Source: Lysobacterales bacterium (GTDB taxonomy: Bacteria > Pseudomonadota > Gammaproteobacteria > Xanthomonadales > Xanthomonadaceae). From it: a DNA stretch of 64,000 bases. Shown piece by piece: positions 43,557-57,719 of this stretch. The notes below the pieces were generated by a model that worked only from the letters and a program-made list of their open reading frames with translations, did not search any database and had not been told where the DNA came from. The stretch is from NCBI GenBank assembly GCA_017302035.1, contig JAFLEA010000001.1, forward strand, positions 1 to 64,000. The letters run 5' to 3'. A program made the position numbers and the translations under genes. Positions within the stretch are counted from its first letter, which is position 1. Each line of letters opens with the position of its first letter.

Positions 43557-44315
43557 ATGCTGCAGGAACTCTTCATCGCAACCGCTGCCGGGGGTGGCAA
43601 TGCCTCCGCCCTGACGCAGATGGGCTTCGACCACCTGCTGAGCGAGATGATCTCCAAGCCGGGCGAGTACGCCGTCTCCTGGATCGTGCTCCTCACCCTT
43701 GTTCTGATGTCGGCCGCGTCCTGGTACTGGACGATCTTCAACGCCATCAAGAACACCCGGCTGAAGTCCTACGCGGACCGCGTGGTCAATGCGTTCTGGG
43801 AGGCTCCGAACGCCCAGGAGGCCATCCGCGCCATGGAAGAGCAGCCGCGCAGCGAGCCGTTCTCCAAGATCGCCCTGGACGCGGCCCAGGCCGCCGCCCA
43901 CCACCAGCGCGCCGAAGGCGCGGGCGCAGGCCTGGGCGAAGCCCTGTCCCGCTCCGAGTTCGTCGACCGCGCCCTGCGCCAGGCCGTGACCCGCGAGAGC
44001 AGCAGGTTGCAGTCCGGCATGATCCTGCTGGCGACCGTCGGCGCAACCGCGCCGTTCGTGGGCCTGCTGGGCACCGTGTGGGGCATCTACGGCGCGCTGA
44101 TCAAGATCGGTGCGACCGGCTCGGCCTCGATCGACGCCGTCGCCGGCCCGGTGGGCGAGGCGCTGATCATGACCGCAATCGGCCTGTTCGTCGCGATCCC
44201 GGCGGTGTTCGCCTACAACTTCTTCAGCAAGATCAACAGCGCCACGATCGCCAAGTTCGATTCGTTCGCCCACGATCTGCACGACTTCTTCGCCACCGGC
44301 TCGCGCGTGCGCTGA
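43557..44315 (+). CDS. exbB: Biopolymer transport protein ExbB
   Basis: A 252-residue MotA/TolQ/ExbB-family proton-channel subunit. Three transmembrane segments are seen: SWIVLLTLVLMSAASWYW at the front, and SGMILLATVGATAPFVGLLG plus ALIMTAIGLFVAIPAVFAYN at the back, the last with the family's conserved GLFVAIPAVxAYN motif. It forms the pentameric ring with ExbD that powers TonB. Lies 80 bp after tonB. Confidence 0.95.
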   Translation: MLQELFIATAAGGGNASALTQMGFDHLLSEMISKPGEYAVSWIVLLTLVLMSAASWYWTIFNAIKNTRLKSYADRVVNAFWEAPNAQEAIRAMEEQPRSEPFSKIALDAAQAAAHHQRAEGAGAGLGEALSRSEFVDRALRQAVTRESSRLQSGMILLATVGATAPFVGLLGTVWGIYGALIKIGATGSASIDAVAGPVGEALIMTAIGLFVAIPAVFAYNFFSKINSATIAKFDSFAHDLHDFFATGSRVR

Positions 44316-44359
44316 GCCGGTTCCGAAGCGTCGACTAGAAGAAACTACGGAGAGCCCGC

Positions 44360-44782
44360 ATGGCCTTCAGTTCGGACAACAGCGGCGGCCCGATGGCCGA
44401 CATCAACGTCACGCCCCTGGTGGACGTGATGCTGGTGCTGCTGATCATCTTCATCATCACCGCGCCGCTGATGCAGCACAAGGTGAAGATCGACCTGCCG
44501 CAGACCGACATCGTGGCGAAGGACGACGACGTACCGAAGGTCATGCCCATCACCATCTCGGTGAAGGAGAATGGCTCCCTGTTCTGGAACGACGAGGAGA
44601 TCACCCGCGAGGTGCTCGAATCGCGCCTGTCCAGCGTCGCCCAGCAGGTTCCGCAGCCCAAGTTGAACCTGCGCGGCGATCGCACCACCAAGATGCGCAC
44701 GATCACCGAAGTGACCAAGATCGCACAGGGTCAGGGCATGCTCGACGTCGGTTTCGTCGCCACCAAAGAAAAGGGACCCTGA
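44360..44782 (+). CDS. exbD: Biopolymer transport protein ExbD1
   Basis: A 140-residue ExbD/TolR-family protein. The single N-terminal helix contains the conserved proton-pathway aspartate in [20 protein letters not shown], and the periplasmic domain ends GMLDVGFVATKEKGP. It is paired with a tandem paralogue (exbD2) beginning 3 bp downstream. In X. campestris the first ExbD is the one needed for iron uptake. Confidence 0.95.
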   Translation: MAFSSDNSGGPMADINVTPLVDVMLVLLIIFIITAPLMQHKVKIDLPQTDIVAKDDDVPKVMPITISVKENGSLFWNDEEITREVLESRLSSVAQQVPQPKLNLRGDRTTKMRTITEVTKIAQGQGMLDVGFVATKEKGP

Positions 44783-44785
44783 GCC

Positions 44786-45202
44786 ATGGCTTTCAGTTCC
44801 GGTTCCGGCAAGGGCCCGATGGCCGACATCAACGTCACGCCCCTGGTGGACGTGATGCTGGTGTTGCTGATCATCTTCATCGTCACCGCGCCGATCATGA
44901 CCTACCCGATCGACGTGGCGCTGCCGCAGCGGGTCATCAACCCGCCGCCGGTGAGGAAGGAGCCTCCGCCGCCTATCGACTTGCGCATCGACGCCAGCAA
45001 CCAGGTGTTCTGGAACAACAGCCCGGTGTCGCTGGGTGCGTTGCGCCAGATGATGGAGACCGAGGTCCAGCGCGATCCCACCAACCAGCCGGAGCTGCGC
45101 ATCGACGCCAGCAACGACTCGGAGTACGAGGCCACGGCTCGCGTCCTGGCCGCGGCCAAGAACGCGCAGATGATCAAGATCAACTTCGTCAACCAGCAGT
45201 AA
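44786..45202 (+). CDS. Biopolymer transport protein ExbD2
   Basis: A 138-residue second ExbD. Its first 35 residues are nearly identical to ExbD1 (the same [20 protein letters not shown] segment) but the periplasmic part has diverged, with a proline-rich stretch [19 protein letters not shown]. In X. campestris the ExbD2 protein is dispensable for iron uptake but needed for other effects on host plants, so a distinct receptor or sensor role is plausible here. It is followed by a terminator and faces pdxJ. Confidence 0.93.
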
Positions 45203-47665: not shown

Positions 47666-47840
47666 GGGTGTAAACCCCCGGTCCCGCTGTATCAGCGGCG
47701 AAACAGCATCGGCAAGCCCAGCAGCCACGCGGCTTTCCGCCGCGGCCGTCGCAGCCGCCCGACACGCCGCTGCTACACCCGGGTGGCTGGCACGGCTCCG
47801 GAACATGCGGCAAGCCATTGATCCACAAGGGAGGGGTGGG

Positions 47841-47856
47841 TTGGCACGGGTCGTGC
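47841..47856 (+). promoter_or_regulatory. Sigma-54 (-24/-12) promoter of the Fap-like operon
   Basis: TTGGCACGGGTCGTGC, with GG at 47843-47844 and GC at 47855-47856 exactly 10 bp apart, matches the sigma-54 consensus TTGGCACG-N4-TTGC with a single deviation in the -12 element (GTGC for TTGC). The start codon is about 37 bp downstream. A sigma-54-dependent activator gene sits at the far end of the same cluster. Inverted repeats upstream (CCGCTG-TAT-CAGCGG at 47684-47698; CACCCGGGTG at 47776-47785) may bind the activator. Confidence 0.8.
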
Positions 47857-47893
47857 GCTTGTGTTCCCGCCGTCTCTTGCGGGAGTACCCATC

Positions 47894-48397
47894 ATGCGAA
47901 CGTTGCCGGTTGCGATCGTTGTCCTGTGCCTGGCGGGCTCGCCGTTGCAGCAGGTCCGTGCCGCCGACGCGCACGTGGGCGTGCATCCGGAGAAGGGAGA
48001 AATGGTGCTGCTGCGCGACGTCAGCGCGCGCCCGGCCTACCGTCCCGCCCCGCCGGGCATCGCCCTGATCGTCGATCCGACACCGAACCGGGAGATCAAC
48101 GGCAGCCTGGGCACCGGCGAGATGTCGGACGAGGACATCGCGGCGATGTCCTCCGGCCGCCTGGACGCAGCCGGTGGCGTGCAGGCCTCGCTGCCCGAGC
48201 GGATGGTCGGCCGTGCGCTGCAGGGTTCGATCGGCGGGATCGCCGGCACGAACGGCGTCGTTTCCGGCGATGGCATCGCCCGCGGGATCGGCGGTGTCAC
48301 CGGCGCGCTGGGCGGGGCAACCCGTTCGATCGCCCCCACCGTGACCGGCGCACTGTCGCAATTCCCGCTGGGCGGGCAGCAGGGCACGGGCCCGTGA
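47894..48397 (+). CDS. FapA-position secreted small protein
   Basis: A 167-residue protein with a signal peptide (MRTLPVAIVVLCLAGSPLQQ, cut after VRA). The mature part is low in aromatic residues and rich in Gly, Ala and Ser towards the end (SIGGIAGTNGVVSGDGIARG). A motif EMSDEDIAAMSSGR at 76-89 resembles the double-glycine leader type LSxxELxxxxG. It is the first gene after the sigma-54 promoter and occupies the place and size of FapA (about 150 residues in Pseudomonas), which guides amyloid assembly; similarity to FapA itself could not be confirmed by eye. A GGGAG ribosome-binding site precedes ATG 47894. Confidence 0.6.
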   Translation: MRTLPVAIVVLCLAGSPLQQVRAADAHVGVHPEKGEMVLLRDVSARPAYRPAPPGIALIVDPTPNREINGSLGTGEMSDEDIAAMSSGRLDAAGGVQASLPERMVGRALQGSIGGIAGTNGVVSGDGIARGIGGVTGALGGATRSIAPTVTGALSQFPLGGQQGTGP

Positions 48398-48399
48398 CC

Positions 48400-49050
48400 A
48401 TGATGGCCGCCAGTCTTCCGCGGTTGCGTCTCCGGTTCCAGGCGGTGCTGCTGGCCGTGGCGGCATTGGTTGCCGCCGGCGCTGCGCGGGCCGGGGATGG
48501 ATACGCCGAGATGCTCGGCTACCTGGCGCAGACCCGGATCGATGGCGATGCCCTGTCCGGGAGCCGCGGCGCGATCGCGGTGAACATGACGGCCGGCGAC
48601 TTCAATCGGCAGGCCAACCTGCGCGCGATCGCGGTCGGCTCCAGCGCCCGGGCCCAGGCGGACGCGCGCCAGCGCAGCCGCGACGACCTGTACGACGCGC
48701 CCACCCATGCCAGCGCCAGCATTGGCGGCTCGGCGCTGGCCGGCGCCGGCGGTCTGGTATCGATCAACCAGGCCAGCGGCAGCGGCAACGCGGAATTCAA
48801 CGCGGTGTCGCTGGCGCTGGCCCAACAAGGCATACGCGAAACGCCGGACAACCTGCTGTCGTCCAGCGTTTCCGCGTCGGCGGAGCGGCAATCCGTCCCC
48901 GGCCCGGCGGGGAGGACCGCCAGCCGCAACGTGGCCGTGGAGGCCACTGCGCTGCGCGGGTTCGAGGGCGTGCTGCAGCTCAACCAGATCGCGGGATCGG
49001 CCAACGAGACCGGCAACGTCCTGACGTTGTCGATCGCGCCGGGCCCGTGA
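48400..49050 (+). CDS. FapB-like minor amyloid repeat protein
   Basis: A 216-residue secreted protein (signal near 8-31: LRLRFQAVLLAVAALVAAGA, cut near ARA). It carries three diverged copies of a repeat with the pattern G-x-hydrophobic-x-hydrophobic-N-x-x-AG-x-x-N: GAIAVNMTAGDFNRQANLRA (57-76), GGLVSINQASGSGNAEFNAV (117-136) and GVLQLNQIAGSANETGNVLT (190-209). The same unit occurs in the next, larger protein, so this looks like the minor or nucleating subunit (FapB position). No cysteine is present. GTG 48394 overlaps the previous stop and is an alternative start; ATG 48403 is another. No clear ribosome-binding site favours one. Confidence 0.68.
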   Translation: MMAASLPRLRLRFQAVLLAVAALVAAGAARAGDGYAEMLGYLAQTRIDGDALSGSRGAIAVNMTAGDFNRQANLRAIAVGSSARAQADARQRSRDDLYDAPTHASASIGGSALAGAGGLVSINQASGSGNAEFNAVSLALAQQGIRETPDNLLSSSVSASAERQSVPGPAGRTASRNVAVEATALRGFEGVLQLNQIAGSANETGNVLTLSIAPGP

Positions 49051-49093
49051 GGCGGTAAATCCACCCAACCCGGAGCAAGAGAGAGAGGACACC

Positions 49094-50641
49094 ATGAAAA
49101 GCAACCTGAAGTGGACCGTGCTCGCCGTGGCCATCAGTGCCGCTGCCGCCGCGCAAGCCGACGAACCCTCGCCGCCTGCGTCATCCGAAACCATCATCGT
49201 CTATGACGAGGATGTCACCATCGACGACACCCGGAACTACGAGACCAACGTCACCAACACCACGGTCAACTATTCCGACACGTTCGACTGGAACACCAAG
49301 ATCAACGAGGAATACAACTCCCTGGTCAACGAGGAAGTCAACCGCGTCGATTCCTTCGAGTGGTACACGACCATCAACGAGGAAATGAACACGCTGTACA
49401 ACTCCACGACCAACTATACCGACAACTTCGATTGGTCGACCACGATCGACGAGACCTTCGTCAGCTATGACGAGCGGGTCAACGTCGATCGCGACATCGA
49501 TTCGCACGAGATGGCGGTCAGCCTGAAGAAGAGCCTCTCGCTCAGCTCGGACATCGCCTTCAGCGGCAGCCCGACCGTCAGCGGCGACATCAAGCTGGAT
49601 TCGGCCGCCATCGCGGTGATCGACAACCGCCAGTCCGTGGGCAACAACCTGGGCGACAACCAGCAGCTCGAGAACGAAGCCGCCATCGGCGACGACACCG
49701 GCACCAAGGCTTCCGGCAACCTGCAGTTCAACGTCGCCGCCGGCGACAACAACGTGCAGGACAACGCGGCCGCGCTGTCGGCTGCAGACGCCAGCTTCGC
49801 CTTCGGCCTGGCTGACGCCGAGATCTTCGTCAACCAGGCTGGCGTGAGCAACCAGACGATGAACCTGGGCGTGACCAACAGCGCAACGGTGTCCGGCAAC
49901 GCATTCTCCGATGCCGCCGGCAACATCGGGGTCAACGTGACCTCCGGCAACAACAACGCGCAGAAGAACGCGCTGGCCGCTTCGGTCGCCACCAGCGCCT
50001 ATGCCCAGGCCAGCGTCAGCTCGAACCAGGTGTCCGGCGGCAACATGACCCTCAATGCGCCGCTCCTGCGCGAAGGTTCGGAAACCGTCGAGATCAGCTT
50101 GTCCGGCACCGTCCAGGGCGAGACTTCCGCCCGCGGCTCCGGTGGGTACACGGGTACGGCCGAGGGCAGCTACGCTGGCCGTGGCAACGCCTACCAGCAG
50201 GACAACTTCTACCTCGACACCTGGGACGGCCAGCTCAATCACCCCAGTGGCGGCAGCACGGGCCATCTGGACATGGACAACGAAATCCAGAACGCGGTCG
50301 GGAACCCGTACAAGGACGGCGTGGGCGGCATCGCCTTCGACACCGACGAGAAAGGCGACTACGCGGGTAGCGAGGAAGGCGATCTGTCCTTCAGCGAACT
50401 CGGGTACGCCGACCTGGAAGCCAGCCTGAGCGGCACCCTGGAGATCCCGACCACCGTGGTGGTCGCCGACGCCCGCAACAGCGCCACGCTGTCCGGCAGT
50501 GCCTTTGCCCGCGCTTCCGGCAACATCGGCGTGAACGTGTCGGCCGGCACCGGCAACCAGCAGGCCAACAGCCTGGCGATGGCCGTGGCCCAGCCGTCCG
50601 CGGCGCCGCCGCCGTCCAATGGCGGTGGCGAGGGCGGTTGA
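49094..50641 (+). CDS. FapC-like major amyloid/surface-fibre subunit
   Basis: A 515-residue secreted protein, signal peptide MKSNLKWTVLAVAISAAAAA QA. The N-terminal part holds three imperfect copies of a 24-residue unit starting at D62, D86 and D110 (DTFDWNTKINEE, DSFEWYTTINEE, DNFDWSTTIDET). The body has three amyloid-type repeats: R1 206-230, R2 263-297 and R3 463-497, with R2 and R3 identical at 21 of 35 places (SGNIGVNV and GNIGVNVTSG segments), separated by linkers, one of them Gly-rich. Asn, Gln and Ser are abundant, cysteine is absent. Such Asn/Gln ladders form amyloid cores in FapC and curlin. A GAGAGAGAGGAC ribosome-binding site precedes ATG 49094. Two hairpins follow the gene. Confidence 0.7.
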   Translation: MKSNLKWTVLAVAISAAAAAQADEPSPPASSETIIVYDEDVTIDDTRNYETNVTNTTVNYSDTFDWNTKINEEYNSLVNEEVNRVDSFEWYTTINEEMNTLYNSTTNYTDNFDWSTTIDETFVSYDERVNVDRDIDSHEMAVSLKKSLSLSSDIAFSGSPTVSGDIKLDSAAIAVIDNRQSVGNNLGDNQQLENEAAIGDDTGTKASGNLQFNVAAGDNNVQDNAAALSAADASFAFGLADAEIFVNQAGVSNQTMNLGVTNSATVSGNAFSDAAGNIGVNVTSGNNNAQKNALAASVATSAYAQASVSSNQVSGGNMTLNAPLLREGSETVEISLSGTVQGETSARGSGGYTGTAEGSYAGRGNAYQQDNFYLDTWDGQLNHPSGGSTGHLDMDNEIQNAVGNPYKDGVGGIAFDTDEKGDYAGSEEGDLSFSELGYADLEASLSGTLEIPTTVVVADARNSATLSGSAFARASGNIGVNVSAGTGNQQANSLAMAVAQPSAAPPPSNGGGEGG

Positions 50642-50683
50642 TGGTGAACCCGGCACCCCGCGCAGGGGTGCGCAAGGAGTGAC

Positions 50684-50708
50684 TCCCGGCCATCCGCCGT
50701 GGCCGGGA
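50684..50708 (+). terminator. Hairpin 1 after the major subunit gene
   Basis: A 9-bp stem TCCCGGCCA / TGGCCGGGA with a 7-nt loop, 43 bp after the subunit stop. It may stabilise the upstream mRNA or cause partial termination. Confidence 0.55.
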
Positions 50709-50719
50709 AATCACGGAAT

Positions 50720-50750
50720 GCCCCGTCCCGCCTCCCCCGCGGGACGGGGC
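50720..50750 (+). terminator. Hairpin 2 (terminator-like) after the major subunit gene
   Basis: A perfect 11-bp GC stem (50720-50730 with 50740-50750) with a 9-nt loop and a short TT run, before the C39 protease gene. It is consistent with high subunit and low protease/export expression. Confidence 0.6.
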
Positions 50751-50831
50751 TTCCACTCCATGCCGGCTTGGCCGGACGGCGGATCTTTTCCCGTAATGCC
50801 CGGAACCGGAACCGCAACAGGAATCGCCGCC

Positions 50832-51548
50832 ATGTCGCGATTGTCGCATTGGAAGCTGGCCTGGATTTTCTCGGTGCTGCTGCTGCCCATCCTCCCGGTG
50901 GCCGGCGTCAGCGCCGCCGACGTGGCCTTCTCCGGGGTGCTGCCCAACGGCGCGCTCTACACCGCACCGGTGCAGAGCATGCGCGAGGGCCGCTATGCCA
51001 ACCTGGTCCGGCAGCAGACCGATTACAGCTGCGGGGCGGCCTCGTTGGCCACGATCCTGCGGTATGCCTACCGCCTGGATGCCGACGAGGGCACCGTGAT
51101 CGAGGGCATGCTCTCGATCGCCGATGCCGAGGTGGTCAAGGAGCGCGGATTCTCGCTGCTGGACATCAAGCGCTACGTCGAGTCCATGGGCATGCGTGGG
51201 CGCGGTTACCGGGTCGACGAGGCCAGGCTGCGCTCGCTGCGCGTGCCCAGCCTGGTGCTGATGGACGTCAATGGGTTCCGCCACTTCGTCGTGCTCAAGC
51301 AGGTACGCGGAGACCTGGTCGAGATCGGCGACCCGATCCTGGGCAACCGGGTAGTGCCGTTGCCGGAATTCCTCGAAGCGTGGCCGTCGCGGGCGGTATT
51401 CGTCGTCATCGGTAGCGACTTCGACCGAAACACCGTGCTGCTGCAGCCGACCACCCGGCCCAGCGCGCGGGCGCTGTACGCACGGCAAGGCCCGATCACC
51501 GACGCCGAGCTGCTGGATTTCGGCTTCAGCCATGCCGACCTGTTCTGA
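50832..51548 (+). CDS. C39-family cysteine protease (FapD-like)
   Basis: A 238-residue C39 peptidase. A signal peptide is present (MSRLSHWKLAWIFSVLLLPI LPVAGVSA), so it acts in the periplasm. Catalytic Cys lies in QQTDYSCGAASLATILRYAY, the histidine in NGFRHFVVLKQV, and the acid in EIGDPILGN. C39 enzymes cut after double-glycine leaders in bacteriocin export; in the fap operon FapD is the C39 protease needed for fibre formation. No ABC transporter domain is attached, matching FapD. Size (FapD about 225 residues) and position (fourth gene) also match. Start ATG 50832 is preferred because it leads into the signal peptide. Confidence 0.85.
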   Translation: MSRLSHWKLAWIFSVLLLPILPVAGVSAADVAFSGVLPNGALYTAPVQSMREGRYANLVRQQTDYSCGAASLATILRYAYRLDADEGTVIEGMLSIADAEVVKERGFSLLDIKRYVESMGMRGRGYRVDEARLRSLRVPSLVLMDVNGFRHFVVLKQVRGDLVEIGDPILGNRVVPLPEFLEAWPSRAVFVVIGSDFDRNTVLLQPTTRPSARALYARQGPITDAELLDFGFSHADLF

Positions 51549-51560
51549 GAGGAGCGGACC

Positions 51561-52358
51561 ATGAACGTCCGACGCAAGCTGTGCATCGCCATGGGCCTGG
51601 TCACCGCGCCGGCGGCACTGCCGGCCTGGGCGCAGCAACCGCCCGACCAGGGGCCGCAGTCGCCCGGCAGCGGGCTGAGCGAACTGAGCGACGAGGAACT
51701 GGGCGACATGCGCGGTCGCTACACAGTGGACCAGAACACGGTGGCCTGGTTCGGCGTGACCATGGTGTCCACCTGGCAAAACCAGGCCGGACAGACCATG
51801 CAGAGCCGGGTGACCCTGGGCATCGACGTGAGCCAGCCCGACAAGCCCAAGGTCACCTTCCAGCCCCACGTGAGCATCACTGCCGCCGGCGCGCCGCCAC
51901 CGCCGCCGTCCGGCGAGCGGAGCATCGACCATGCCGGTCTGGCCAACGTCAACGGCATGGTCCAGAGCGTGCAGGTCGCCGGCGACGGCAATCGCGCCAG
52001 CAATGTCGCAAGCATCACCGTGCGCGAGCAAGGCGAACGGCCAGGCTCGCCGGCAGGCCCGTCCGCGGGAACCATGGAACTGTCCGCCGCCGCGCAGGCG
52101 CAGGGCATGAGTGCGGTCGCCTCGCTGCAGGACAACGCAGCGCGCGTGTTGCTGCAGATCGATGGGCAAGGTGCGGTCGAGCAGTGGATCGGCAGCAGCG
52201 GCATGGGCCAGAGCATCCGCCTGGCCGCCGATGGCCACCAGGCCAGCAACTGGATGGAGCTGGACCTGGTGCGCAGCCCCTCGTCGGCGCGCGCGTCGCT
52301 GGGCCAGAACGTGGCCCAGGCGATCGCGCTCAGCCGCGGGATCGGGATTCGCTATTGA
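51561..52358 (+). CDS. FapE-like secreted amyloid-associated protein
   Basis: A 265-residue secreted protein with a signal peptide (MNVRRKLCIAMGLVTAPAAL PAWA). A striking motif LSELSDEELGDMRGRY at 39-54 resembles double-glycine-type leaders with GG replaced by GR. After it comes TVDQNTVAWFGVTMVSTWQN and a repeat-like region (GMVQSVQVAGDGNRASNVA) with an amyloid-style Asn pattern. FapE in Pseudomonas is a minor fibre component of similar size (about 231 residues); classical FapE has a CxxC motif, absent here. The gene lies 12 bp after the C39 gene with a GAGGAG ribosome-binding site. Confidence 0.65.
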   Translation: MNVRRKLCIAMGLVTAPAALPAWAQQPPDQGPQSPGSGLSELSDEELGDMRGRYTVDQNTVAWFGVTMVSTWQNQAGQTMQSRVTLGIDVSQPDKPKVTFQPHVSITAAGAPPPPPSGERSIDHAGLANVNGMVQSVQVAGDGNRASNVASITVREQGERPGSPAGPSAGTMELSAAAQAQGMSAVASLQDNAARVLLQIDGQGAVEQWIGSSGMGQSIRLAADGHQASNWMELDLVRSPSSARASLGQNVAQAIALSRGIGIRY

Positions 52359-52391
52359 ACGGGACCGGCATGGGCCGGTGGGGGAAAGCAC

Positions 52392-53735
52392 ATGATCAGG
52401 AACCATCAGACCGCCGCGGCCCCTGGCCTGCGCCTGGCCATCCTCGCCGCGCTGGGCGCCGGAACGTCGATGCTGGCGCCGGCCGCGTTCGCGCAGGACG
52501 CCGGCGACGAGGCCGAACTGCTGCAGCTCAGCCAGGAATTGGCCGCGCTCAAGGCCTCTTACGCCCAGGAAGTGCGGCGCCTGCGCGAGCTGGACATGCA
52601 GGTGCAGGCGCTGCAGGCACGGCTGGCGGGCAAGGTTCCGGCCACGGCCGCCCCCGTGGCCGCCGCGCCGCCCGCTCCTGCTCCCGGACCCGGCCAGGCG
52701 GCTGCGCCGCCGCCATCGCCGGATGGCTACGCCAGCACCGCCGCCGAGGCGGAAAAGGCCAAGAGCGAAGCGATGTCGCGCAGCGTGGCCGACGTGAAGC
52801 AGCAGGCGCGCGCGCTGTTCGACCAGAAGCTGGTGATCGAGAACGGCCTCACCTACAACCGCTACGACCGCAAGCAGCTCACCCTCAACGGCTTCCTCGC
52901 CCTTGACGCGATATTCCTGGGCAACATCGCCATCGAGAACGTCGAATCGGACACGCTCACCTACAACCTGGCCGCACGCTGGGGCGTGAGCCCGAACCTG
53001 ACCTTGAACCTGGATGTACCCTACATCGCGCGCAAGACCGTCTACCAGAAGGGTGGCGCCGGCGGCGCGGCGGCGGCGATCGCGCAGGAGCAGACCACCG
53101 GCAACGGCATCGGCGACGCCGTGGCCAGCCTCAACTACCGGCTGCTGGGCGAACGCGGCGCGCGCCCGGAAACGGTGCTCAACTTCGGCCTGACCATGCC
53201 TACCGGGCGCGAGCCCTACGGCATTCCATGGCGGGTTCTGGAGCGCGACGACGACGACTTCATCCGCTTCGCCGTGCCCGAACAACAGCCCACCGGCAAC
53301 GGCGCCTGGCAGGCCAGCATCGGTGTGTCGGCGGTCAAGACCAGCGACCCGGCGATCCTGTTCGGCAACATCGGCTACACCTATTCGTTCAGGGCCAGCT
53401 TCGATGACATCGACAGCAATCCGGACACCGTCAATCCCGGAGACGTCAGGCTCGGCCAATCGTTCTACTACGGCGCGGGCGTAGCCTTCGCCTTCAACGA
53501 GCGGACCAGCTTCAGCATGTCGCTGAGCAACCGGCTCAGCGCACGCGCGCGGACCCGTACCGAAGGTCAGCCGTGGCTCAAGGTGATCGGCAGCGACGCC
53601 AATGCGGCGATGTTCAACCTGGGCGTGACCTATGCGATGAGCCGGCACGCGACCATGGTCGGCCTGCTTGGCATCGGCCTGACCCCGGACGCACCGGACT
53701 TCAGCCTCGGCTTCAAGATCCCCTACAGCCTGTAG
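52392..53735 (+). CDS. FapF-like outer-membrane amyloid exporter
   Basis: A 447-residue protein. Signal peptide to about residue 35, a coiled coil at about 39-80 (AELLQLSQELAALKASYAQE, VRRLRELDMQVQALQARLA), a Pro/Ala linker (82-110), a helical plug-like part (113-146) and a C-terminal beta barrel of about 300 residues with alternating hydrophobic strands (LTYNLAARWGVSPNLTLNLD and ASIGVSAVKTSDPAILFGNI). This coiled-coil-plus-barrel plan is that of FapF, the trimeric exporter of Fap fibres. It ends FSLGFKIPYSL. It is the sixth gene, as fapF is in Pseudomonas (about 430 residues). Confidence 0.75.
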   Translation: MIRNHQTAAAPGLRLAILAALGAGTSMLAPAAFAQDAGDEAELLQLSQELAALKASYAQEVRRLRELDMQVQALQARLAGKVPATAAPVAAAPPAPAPGPGQAAAPPPSPDGYASTAAEAEKAKSEAMSRSVADVKQQARALFDQKLVIENGLTYNRYDRKQLTLNGFLALDAIFLGNIAIENVESDTLTYNLAARWGVSPNLTLNLDVPYIARKTVYQKGGAGGAAAAIAQEQTTGNGIGDAVASLNYRLLGERGARPETVLNFGLTMPTGREPYGIPWRVLERDDDDFIRFAVPEQQPTGNGAWQASIGVSAVKTSDPAILFGNIGYTYSFRASFDDIDSNPDTVNPGDVRLGQSFYYGAGVAFAFNERTSFSMSLSNRLSARARTRTEGQPWLKVIGSDANAAMFNLGVTYAMSRHATMVGLLGIGLTPDAPDFSLGFKIPYSL

Positions 53736-53787: not shown

Positions 53788-55116
<1,329 letters not shown>

Positions 55117-55818: not shown

Positions 55819-56463
55819 TCAGATGATCCGCAGCGTGATCGCCTTCAGCACCGCGCGGGTACGGTCCCGGGTGCCGAGCTTGTCGAGGATGGTGGAGACG
55901 TAGTTTTTCACCGTGCCTTCGGCCAGGAACAGGCTGCGGGCGATCTCCTTGTTCGAGTAGCCGCCGGCAAGCAGGCGCAGGATCGCCACTTCGCGCTCGC
56001 CGAAGTTGTCGTGCGGTGGGGCCTCGTCGTGGAAGCGGTAGCGTGCGCGCACCGGGTCGGTGCTGACCGGGGCCAGCAGGGTCTCGCCGGCGGCCACGCG
56101 CAGGACCGCTTCATGCAGGTCCTCGGGCGCCGCGTCCTTGAGCAGGAAGCCCTGCGCACCGGCCTCGCTGGCTTGCAGCGGCAGGTCGCTGTCGTCGAAG
56201 GTGGTGAGCAGCAGCACCGGGGTGCGGTCGCCGATGGCGCGCAGTTCGCGCAATGCGGCAATGCCGTCCACGCCGGGCATGCGGATGTCGCTGAGGATCA
56301 CGTCCACCGGCTGCAGCTGCAGGGCGTCGAGCAGGTCCTGGCCGTCCTCGGCCTCGAACGCGACCACGATGCCGAGTCGTTCCAGCAGGGCACGCAGGCC
56401 GGCGCGGACCAGGGCCTGGTCGTCGGCGAGGGCGACGCGCAACGGCAGCCCCGCGCCGCTCAT
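55819..56463 (-). CDS. NarL/DesR-type response regulator
   Basis: A 214-residue response regulator. The receiver domain has LRVALADDQALVRAGL (acidic pocket), the phosphorylatable aspartate in VDVILSDIRMPGVDG, the threonine in VLLLTTFDD and lysine in GFLLKDA. The C-terminal LuxR HTH reads FGEREVAILRLLAGGYSNKE and IARSLFLAEGTVKNYVSTIL. It overlaps the sensor kinase gene (ATGA, 56460-56463) so the two are co-translated. Its targets are unknown; the small membrane protein gene next to it is a candidate. Confidence 0.9.
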   Translation of the reverse strand: MSGAGLPLRVALADDQALVRAGLRALLERLGIVVAFEAEDGQDLLDALQLQPVDVILSDIRMPGVDGIAALRELRAIGDRTPVLLLTTFDDSDLPLQASEAGAQGFLLKDAAPEDLHEAVLRVAAGETLLAPVSTDPVRARYRFHDEAPPHDNFGEREVAILRLLAGGYSNKEIARSLFLAEGTVKNYVSTILDKLGTRDRTRAVLKAITLRII

Positions 56464-57575
56464 GCCGGCAGCGTCGCCTGCAGGCGCAAGCCACCCTGCG
56501 GGGTGCGGCCGACCACGAGGGTGCCGTCCAGCGCCGCCAACCGTTCGCGCATGCCGGCGATGCCGTTGCCTTCGCGCAGCAGGGAGCCGCACTGGCCGTC
56601 GTCATGGATGTCGATGTGCAACCGTTGTTCCTCGCTGTCGATCCGCAGCCACACCTGTCCGGCACCGGCGTGCCGTGCCGCGTTGGTCAGCGCTTCCTGC
56701 GCCAGCCTGAGCACGGTTTCGGCCACGGCCGGATCGGCGACCCGGACTCCGGGTGCGATTGTGAGTTGCAGCGCCGGGCGTGGGAAGGGGGCGGCGAGCG
56801 CATGCAGCGCGGTGGCCAGGTCCAGGCCGCGTTCGTCGCGCAGCGACTGCACCACCCGGCGGATGTCGCTGAGCAGTTCGCCGGACAGGCGTTCGGCCAG
56901 CGCGATGCCTTCGTGCCCGGCCAGCGCGGGGTCCGCGGACAGCTCGCGCAGGTTCAGGCGCATGGCGGTGAGCTTGTGCCCGGCCACGTCGTGCAGTTCC
57001 CGGGCCATGCGCAGGCGCTCGGCATCGCGCGTGCTGTCGGCCAGCAGCGCGCGGGTGGCGAGCAGGCCGGCGTTGACCCGGGCCAGTTCGTCGCGCGCGC
57101 CCTCGGCCGAACGCGCGTAGTAGATGCAGATGCCGGCCAGCGCCTGGAAGCCCATGTTGATCACGACCATGGGCAGCGGCGAGTCGATCCCGGTCCGGCG
57201 CAGTCCCACGTAATAGGCGGCGTTGACCAGCAGCACCGCCAGGGCGGCCGTGCGCGGGGTCCAGACCGCGAACGCGCACGCCGCCCAGATCACCAGCAGC
57301 ACGGGCGAAGCGCCCACGCGCAGGGACAGGCCGTGCAGGGCCAGGATCACCGGCGGCATCGCCAGCAGGATCAGTTGCTGGGGCAGGCGTCGCCGGTCCG
57401 GCACCAGCTGCAACGCCACGAACAGCAGCAGGAATACGCCCAGCAGCATCAGCGCCGCGGGCCGGTGCGACGCCTCCACGAAACGCAGCGAGTAGCCGAC
57501 GGTAAGGATGGTCAGCAGCCCGGCCAGGGGCAGGGGCTGGAGCAGGGTCTTGAGGAACTCGGGCATCCGGCGCAT
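56460..57575 (-). CDS. DesK-type sensor histidine kinase
   Basis: A 371-residue membrane sensor kinase. Five to six transmembrane helices fill the N-terminal 170 residues (LAGLLTILTVGYSLRFVEAS and ALMLLGVFLLLFVALQLV), with no large sensory loop. The HisKA_3 domain has the phosphorylated histidine in RELHDVAGHKLTAMRLNLRE, and the catalytic ATPase domain carries LAQEALTNAARHAGAG (N box) and GNGIAGMRERLAAL (G box). DesK in Bacillus senses membrane fluidity; this one probably senses an envelope or membrane signal. Start ATG 57575 (MRRMPEFLK) is tentative; ATG 57566 is close by. Confidence 0.88.
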   Translation of the reverse strand: MRRMPEFLKTLLQPLPLAGLLTILTVGYSLRFVEASHRPAALMLLGVFLLLFVALQLVPDRRRLPQQLILLAMPPVILALHGLSLRVGASPVLLVIWAACAFAVWTPRTAALAVLLVNAAYYVGLRRTGIDSPLPMVVINMGFQALAGICIYYARSAEGARDELARVNAGLLATRALLADSTRDAERLRMARELHDVAGHKLTAMRLNLRELSADPALAGHEGIALAERLSGELLSDIRRVVQSLRDERGLDLATALHALAAPFPRPALQLTIAPGVRVADPAVAETVLRLAQEALTNAARHAGAGQVWLRIDSEEQRLHIDIHDDGQCGSLLREGNGIAGMRERLAALDGTLVVGRTPQGGLRLQATLPA

Positions 57576-57719
57576 CGCGCCATGCTGTGCCGGGTGGCGC
57601 GGGTTGGCAACGCCCAGGGTGGCGAAGGTGACTTCCGGCACCCGCAACGGGTGACGGCTGGCCCTGCCGGGCGGGCATGGCGGTGTGGAGACTGGGCCCA
57701 ACCCGCCAGGAGGATCGCC

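Follow-up and report, generated by a model that had tools for sequence, protein, structure and literature searches.

We analyzed a 64,000-nucleotide stretch of DNA (hereafter the window; positions 1 to 64,000, forward strand, of contig JAFLEA010000001.1, assembly GCA_017302035.1) from a Lysobacterales bacterium placed by GTDB in the Xanthomonadaceae. Six consecutive + strand genes at 47894-53735 encode homologues of the functional amyloid proteins FapA to FapF, and are followed by a convergent gene for a sigma-54 activator. An earlier note had described here, from the letters and open reading frames (ORFs), a divergent Fap-type operon. The ORF list and translations bear out its six genes in a row and their sizes (167, 216, 515, 238, 265 and 447 amino acids, aa), the 216 aa of the second holding if the ATG at 48400 is used. 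Its span starts at 47841, where the -24 element of a sigma-54 promoter lies, the first gene beginning at 47894; this promoter and the adjacent activator gene had been overlooked. The features are as follows:

47688..47705, +, putative activator site (upstream activating sequence, UAS): TGTATCAGCGGCGAAACA, inverted repeat TGTNNCA-N4-TGNNACA, 9 of 10 specified bases
47842..47856, +, sigma-54 (-24/-12) promoter of fapA: TGGCACGGGTCGTGC, 10 of 11 specified bases, GG-N10-GC core
47894..48397, +, fapA: 167 aa, secreted chaperone; NF058617, E 1.7e-8, 35 bits against a cut-off of 110; first position in the operon
48403..49050, +, fapB: 215 aa (216 from the ATG at 48400), stop codon 49048-49050; minor subunit/nucleator with three Fap repeats; NF058557, E 4.5e-24
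49094..50641, +, fapC: 515 aa, three Fap repeats with a long second linker, T/N/D/E-rich stretch at the N terminus, signal peptide by eye; major amyloid subunit
50832..51548, +, fapD: 238 aa, C39 cysteine protease; NF058616, E 4.5e-76; PF03412, E 1.1e-17
51561..52358, +, fapE: 265 aa, minor secreted component; NF058559, E 1e-30
52392..53735, +, fapF: 447 aa, outer-membrane exporter, N-terminal helical region (coiled-coil-like, by eye) and beta-barrel; NF058560, E 1.6e-113
53788..55116 (start may be 55131), -, brfA-like sigma-54 enhancer-binding activator of a fap-linked clade: about 442 aa, convergent with fapF; PF00158, E 1.2e-69; PF02954 Fis helix-turn-helix (HTH), E 1.3e-7

The fap operon and its protein families

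By sequence homology, the genes stand in the order fapABCDEF of what is probably a single operon, and all six products appear, by eye, to bear Sec-type signal peptides. Each protein has its own Fap model as best NCBIfam match, in gene order (FapC model, E 1.3e-52; others listed above), the FapA homologue at the head of the operon being recognized weakly. In Pfam, the sole notable matches of the six are Peptidase_C39 (E 1.1e-17) and weak barrel families. Residues 128-445 of the exporter match the FapF crystal structure (PDB 5o65, E 9.8e-80), so that its assignment to the FapF type stands; the barrel is assigned by this homology, and the coiled coil by eye and profile. The protease residues seen earlier in FapD are C67, H151 and D167, invariant in all 79 aligned FapD sequences, the window included. 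Concerning FapE, its C-terminal half holds two weak Fap-like repeats (internal repeat E 2.5e-4, probability 43%; against a FapB repeat E 4.2e-4, probability 34%; a single hhalign comparison each), and structure prediction gives an all-beta core across about residues 60-240, with a predicted local distance difference test (pLDDT) score of mostly 80-96.

All six proteins score below their curated NCBIfam cut-offs, and to this extent the operon may be called divergent. In a sample of 369 genomes of the class that includes the window genome, however, FapF is found at E <=1e-60 in 17 and FapE at E <=1e-3 in 16, and again none lies above the respective cut-off. Since no FapF-positive genome reaches the FapF cut-off, these equivalog thresholds are no biological criterion, and the operon is typical both of its own family and of Fap outside Pseudomonas.

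A scan of public genomes by FapF gave 106 relatives, of which we kept the best 80 as related loci. These are mostly labelled Pseudoxanthomonas, Stenotrophomonas, Luteimonas or Lysobacter (most of them Lysobacteraceae), and their FapF is 64-85% identical to that of the window over best segments, the closest (85%) coming from a Pseudoxanthomonas metagenome-assembled genome, a hint from a single protein that the host of the window may belong to this genus. The genes A to F are colinear on one strand in 77 of the 80; two of the remaining three (L049, L083) lie at contig edges, and the third (L075) lacks only a FapC recognized by blastp. Because genes, order and strand are shared so widely, the six-gene arrangement is not due to chance. 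In one of these loci (JAHREJ010000021.1), labelled Bacillus subtilis, the fap operon is Stenotrophomonas-like, with a FapF 70% identical to that of the window; the assembly is probably mislabelled or contaminated. Farther away, a plasmid of Vibrio sp. SCSIO 43009 encodes a FapF-like transporter (26% identity over residues 129-447) near recombinase and terminase genes.

Fap has been in print for Xanthomonadales (Stenotrophomonas, Rhodanobacter) since 2013 (PMC3792158), and the operon described here, which shows no material difference from those reported there, adds a further species of that family. With fapABCDEF of Pseudomonas it shares the six genes, their order and families, the three repeats in both FapB and FapC, the C39 protease, the FapF barrel and the predicted FapC core fold; with P. 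fluorescens PF07 in particular it shares a -24/-12 promoter (PMC9207406). It differs from Pseudomonas Fap in its scores under the NCBIfam cut-offs, in a FapC without CxxC motif, and in a long and variable T/N/D/E-rich tract before the first FapC repeat.

Fap repeats and the N-terminal tract of FapC

The repeats that had been noticed in both repeat proteins are three in each: motifs start at 208, 276 and 476 in FapC, and at 56, 117 and 189 in FapB. Exactly three FapC repeats are present in the window and in all 76 relatives examined. hhalign relates the two proteins with a probability of 97%, FapB being a shorter three-repeat relative of FapC. The window FapC also matches the FapC fibril entries 9u4u and 9nqd of the PDB (E 5e-15) with the repeats aligned, and structure prediction gives its core the FapC amyloid fold. 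As sequence and predicted fold both align with PDB FapC, the repeats are of the same kind as in Pseudomonas, contrary to what the earlier note had stated. This predicted fold suggests that the amyloid core has been retained despite the differing sequence, linkers and N-terminal tract.

The absence of a CxxC motif was correctly noted: it is missing from the window FapC and from all 77 related FapC, and is present in four of the 12 other-family stretches that have a FapC. The motif has been termed conserved in FapC (PMC6173800); given this distribution, it is not defining for Fap.

We measured FapC lengths in those 69 of the 77 proteins whose start is clear. Most variable is the stretch between the start and the first repeat (109-277, standard deviation, sd, 33); the first linker is invariant (68 from first to second repeat in 69/69), and the second varies modestly (149-215 from second to third repeat, sd 10). 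The mark of the family, as read from these sequences, is therefore the place of length variation, namely the tract before the first repeat. A 2025 survey locates FapC length differences in the inter-repeat linkers (PMC12392863). In the window the N-terminal tract of FapC (49094-49500) has many T, N, D and E residues and shows, by eye, imperfect repeats around 'DxFDWxT'; structure prediction gives it no fold.

A Fap-related fibre or pilus system that does not form amyloid, such as the putative Fil pilus system, has a related C39 protease and outer-membrane protein, and the Fil models do match here (FapD to FilB, E 4.5e-28; FapF to FilC, E 9.1e-18). The Fap models are nevertheless far ahead for the same two proteins (E 4.5e-76 and 1.6e-113), and the window also possesses the Fap subunits FapB, FapC and FapE, canonical repeats in the first two, and a predicted FapC amyloid fold, which leaves this alternative very improbable. 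The earlier note had named an exporter of another barrel family, or a lack of any relation to Fap by profile search, as results that would speak against its reading. The six profile matches to the Fap namesakes, the FapF homology and the predicted FapC fold thus uphold the Fap identity on both of these counts, and by analogy with Pseudomonas the products would form fibres.

The sigma-54 activator and the fapA control region

The gene convergent with fapF combines a sigma-54 activator domain with a Fis-type HTH. Its product carries the GAFTGA motif, which is present in 62 of 80 aligned proteins, and over residues 15-439, N-terminal domain included, it matches a sigma-54 dependent transcriptional regulator (PDB 7vbs, E 2.4e-56). 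Such a gene accompanies fap in 79 of the 80 related loci, downstream and convergent in 63, upstream and divergent in 16; in the only locus without it the contig stops about 350 bases past fapF. In a wider set of 16 stretches around FapE matches in 15 genomes (13 stretches from other families, three from the same family), an activator gene was found in 15 (in L115 as a mere fragment at the contig start), and in 12 of the 13 from other families. The exception is L103, a cluster without recognizable fapABC.

Because any sigma-54 activator would match such a model to some degree, we ranked the matches within genomes and inferred a tree. The best match to the window activator is the fap-adjacent gene in 11 of the 13 genomes searched; in one of the others (G253) the adjacent gene ranks second, and in G008 it scores 233 bits against 295 for the best. 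In an IQ-TREE phylogeny of 39 proteins, in which the non-adjacent activators are next-best matches with fetched loci and not a random sample, and seven of the 21 adjacent ones were hand-picked from the 80 loci, one branch (support 100/96) parts the 21 fap-adjacent activators plus L122 from the other 17. As L122 groups with them, the fap-adjacent activators do not by themselves make up one side of this branch; L116 forms a long branch. L122 is a fap-type activator of G253, on a different contig from its fap genes. This genome has two separate fap-type clusters, L103 (C6:529500-548500) and L111 (219000-238000), one with recognizable D, E and F only; a published survey reports only three two-cluster genomes (PMC12392863).

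Upstream of fapA, we scanned 300 bases in 79 regions (the window and 78 loci) for the sigma-54 consensus. The best site scores 10/11 in 74 regions, 9 in four and 8 in one, scores reached in dinucleotide shuffles by 0.6%, 4.8% and 17%, respectively. In L047 the top-scoring site is distant, with another one, of the conserved form, closer to fapA. Alignment of 11 upstream regions further revealed a palindrome conserved amid otherwise diverged sequence. In the 68 loci outside this defining set it is matched at 10/10 in 48, 9/10 in 12 and 8/10 in eight; among 1360 shuffles none reaches 10/10 and 1.2% reach 9/10. The best palindrome begins 149-168 bp before the -24 TGG in 74 of the 79 regions; in the other five this distance is 71-82 bp. 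A second copy (at least 8/10), at no fixed spacing, occurs in 44 of 79 regions against 9.5% of shuffles. Since the loci are related, none of these counts are independent. Across the window genome there are four distinct palindrome matches (with Y in place of the T that opens the second half), one of them the UAS, against eight for the reversed control pattern.

Regulatory sites stand out less clearly outside the window's family. A crude 950-base scan found a sigma-54 site of at least 10/11 in three of 13 other-family stretches, and the palindrome reaches at least 9/10 in eight of 14 (the same 13 plus one from Aeromonas, L147; counted without a shuffle baseline); at 8/10 or better it is absent from four of the 14 (L102, L103, L113 and L147).

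A published case offers a close parallel. In P. fluorescens PF07, brfA is a reverse gene adjoining fapF, with an ORF of 1326 bp that encodes an RpoN-dependent Fis-family regulator; the mapped fapA start is preceded by a -24/-12 element, and fap transcription is reported to drop without rpoN or brfA, fapF itself being regulated unlike fapA-E (PMC9207406). BrfA has later been termed responsive to cyclic di-GMP (c-di-GMP), with BrfA-type factors said to occur widely in Pseudomonas (PMC13101488). The window activator resembles PF07 BrfA, as described there, in its Fis family, reverse position by fapF and length (about 442 aa), a likeness drawn from the published description. Among the open-access matches listed for Fap with Stenotrophomonas, RpoN, BrfA or Xanthomonas, none deals by title or abstract with fap regulation in the window's family.

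It could be argued that the activator is an unrelated neighbour or regulates other genes, a view compatible with the Fap identity of the operon. Its upstream position in 16 of 79 loci and the two genomes whose best match is not fap-adjacent, the adjacent gene of G008 being well below the best, would fit such a view. The linkage across related and other-family loci, the strongly supported branch, the conserved promoter and palindrome before fapA, and the brfA precedent (PMC9207406) all point the other way, and we regard it as unlikely. That the operon is decayed or silent is less likely still, in view of six open frames, invariant catalytic residues, intact repeats and a conserved control region.

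Proposed mechanism and wider distribution

Taken together, the locus very probably represents a complete Fap operon and, linked to it, a sigma-54 control circuit, a confidence that applies to this core claim and not to each step of the following scheme, which is modelled on Pseudomonas. A signal, probably c-di-GMP by analogy with P. fluorescens BrfA, would activate the adjacent enhancer-binding protein, which would bind the palindrome, some 154 bp upstream, and open the sigma-54 promoter before fapA. FapA would then prevent FapB and FapC from folding in the periplasm, and FapD would process a component, probably FapE and/or FapF. FapB, FapC and FapE would exit via a FapF trimer, whereupon FapB may nucleate and FapC polymerize into biofilm-matrix fibres.

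The operon itself is one more species for a known and well-surveyed system (PMC3792158), with 1602 fap clusters surveyed by 2025 (PMC12822426). What is added here, and is moderately interesting, is the conserved control circuit in the window's family together with its co-inherited activator group. We lean towards the view that fap is a seven-gene module across much of the Gammaproteobacteria (in the GTDB sense), in which fapABCDEF or fapBCDEF has been inherited together with a sigma-54 activator clade of its own, and with the palindrome of that clade, from a time before the families split, activator-gated (probably c-di-GMP-gated) amyloid production being ancestral. If so, activator gating of amyloid would be no peculiarity of Pseudomonas. 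Activator, palindrome and sigma-54 site provide a ready prediction for how fap is switched on in the window's family, and the activator accompanies fap in other families too; the control of this widespread biofilm amyloid is therefore testable in hosts other than Pseudomonas.

Two further gene groups were noticed by eye in the ORF list of the window. Just past the activator, on the minus strand, lies a response regulator and sensor kinase pair (55819-57701), and upstream of the operon an exbB-like gene is followed by two tandem exbD/tolR-like genes (43557-45202).

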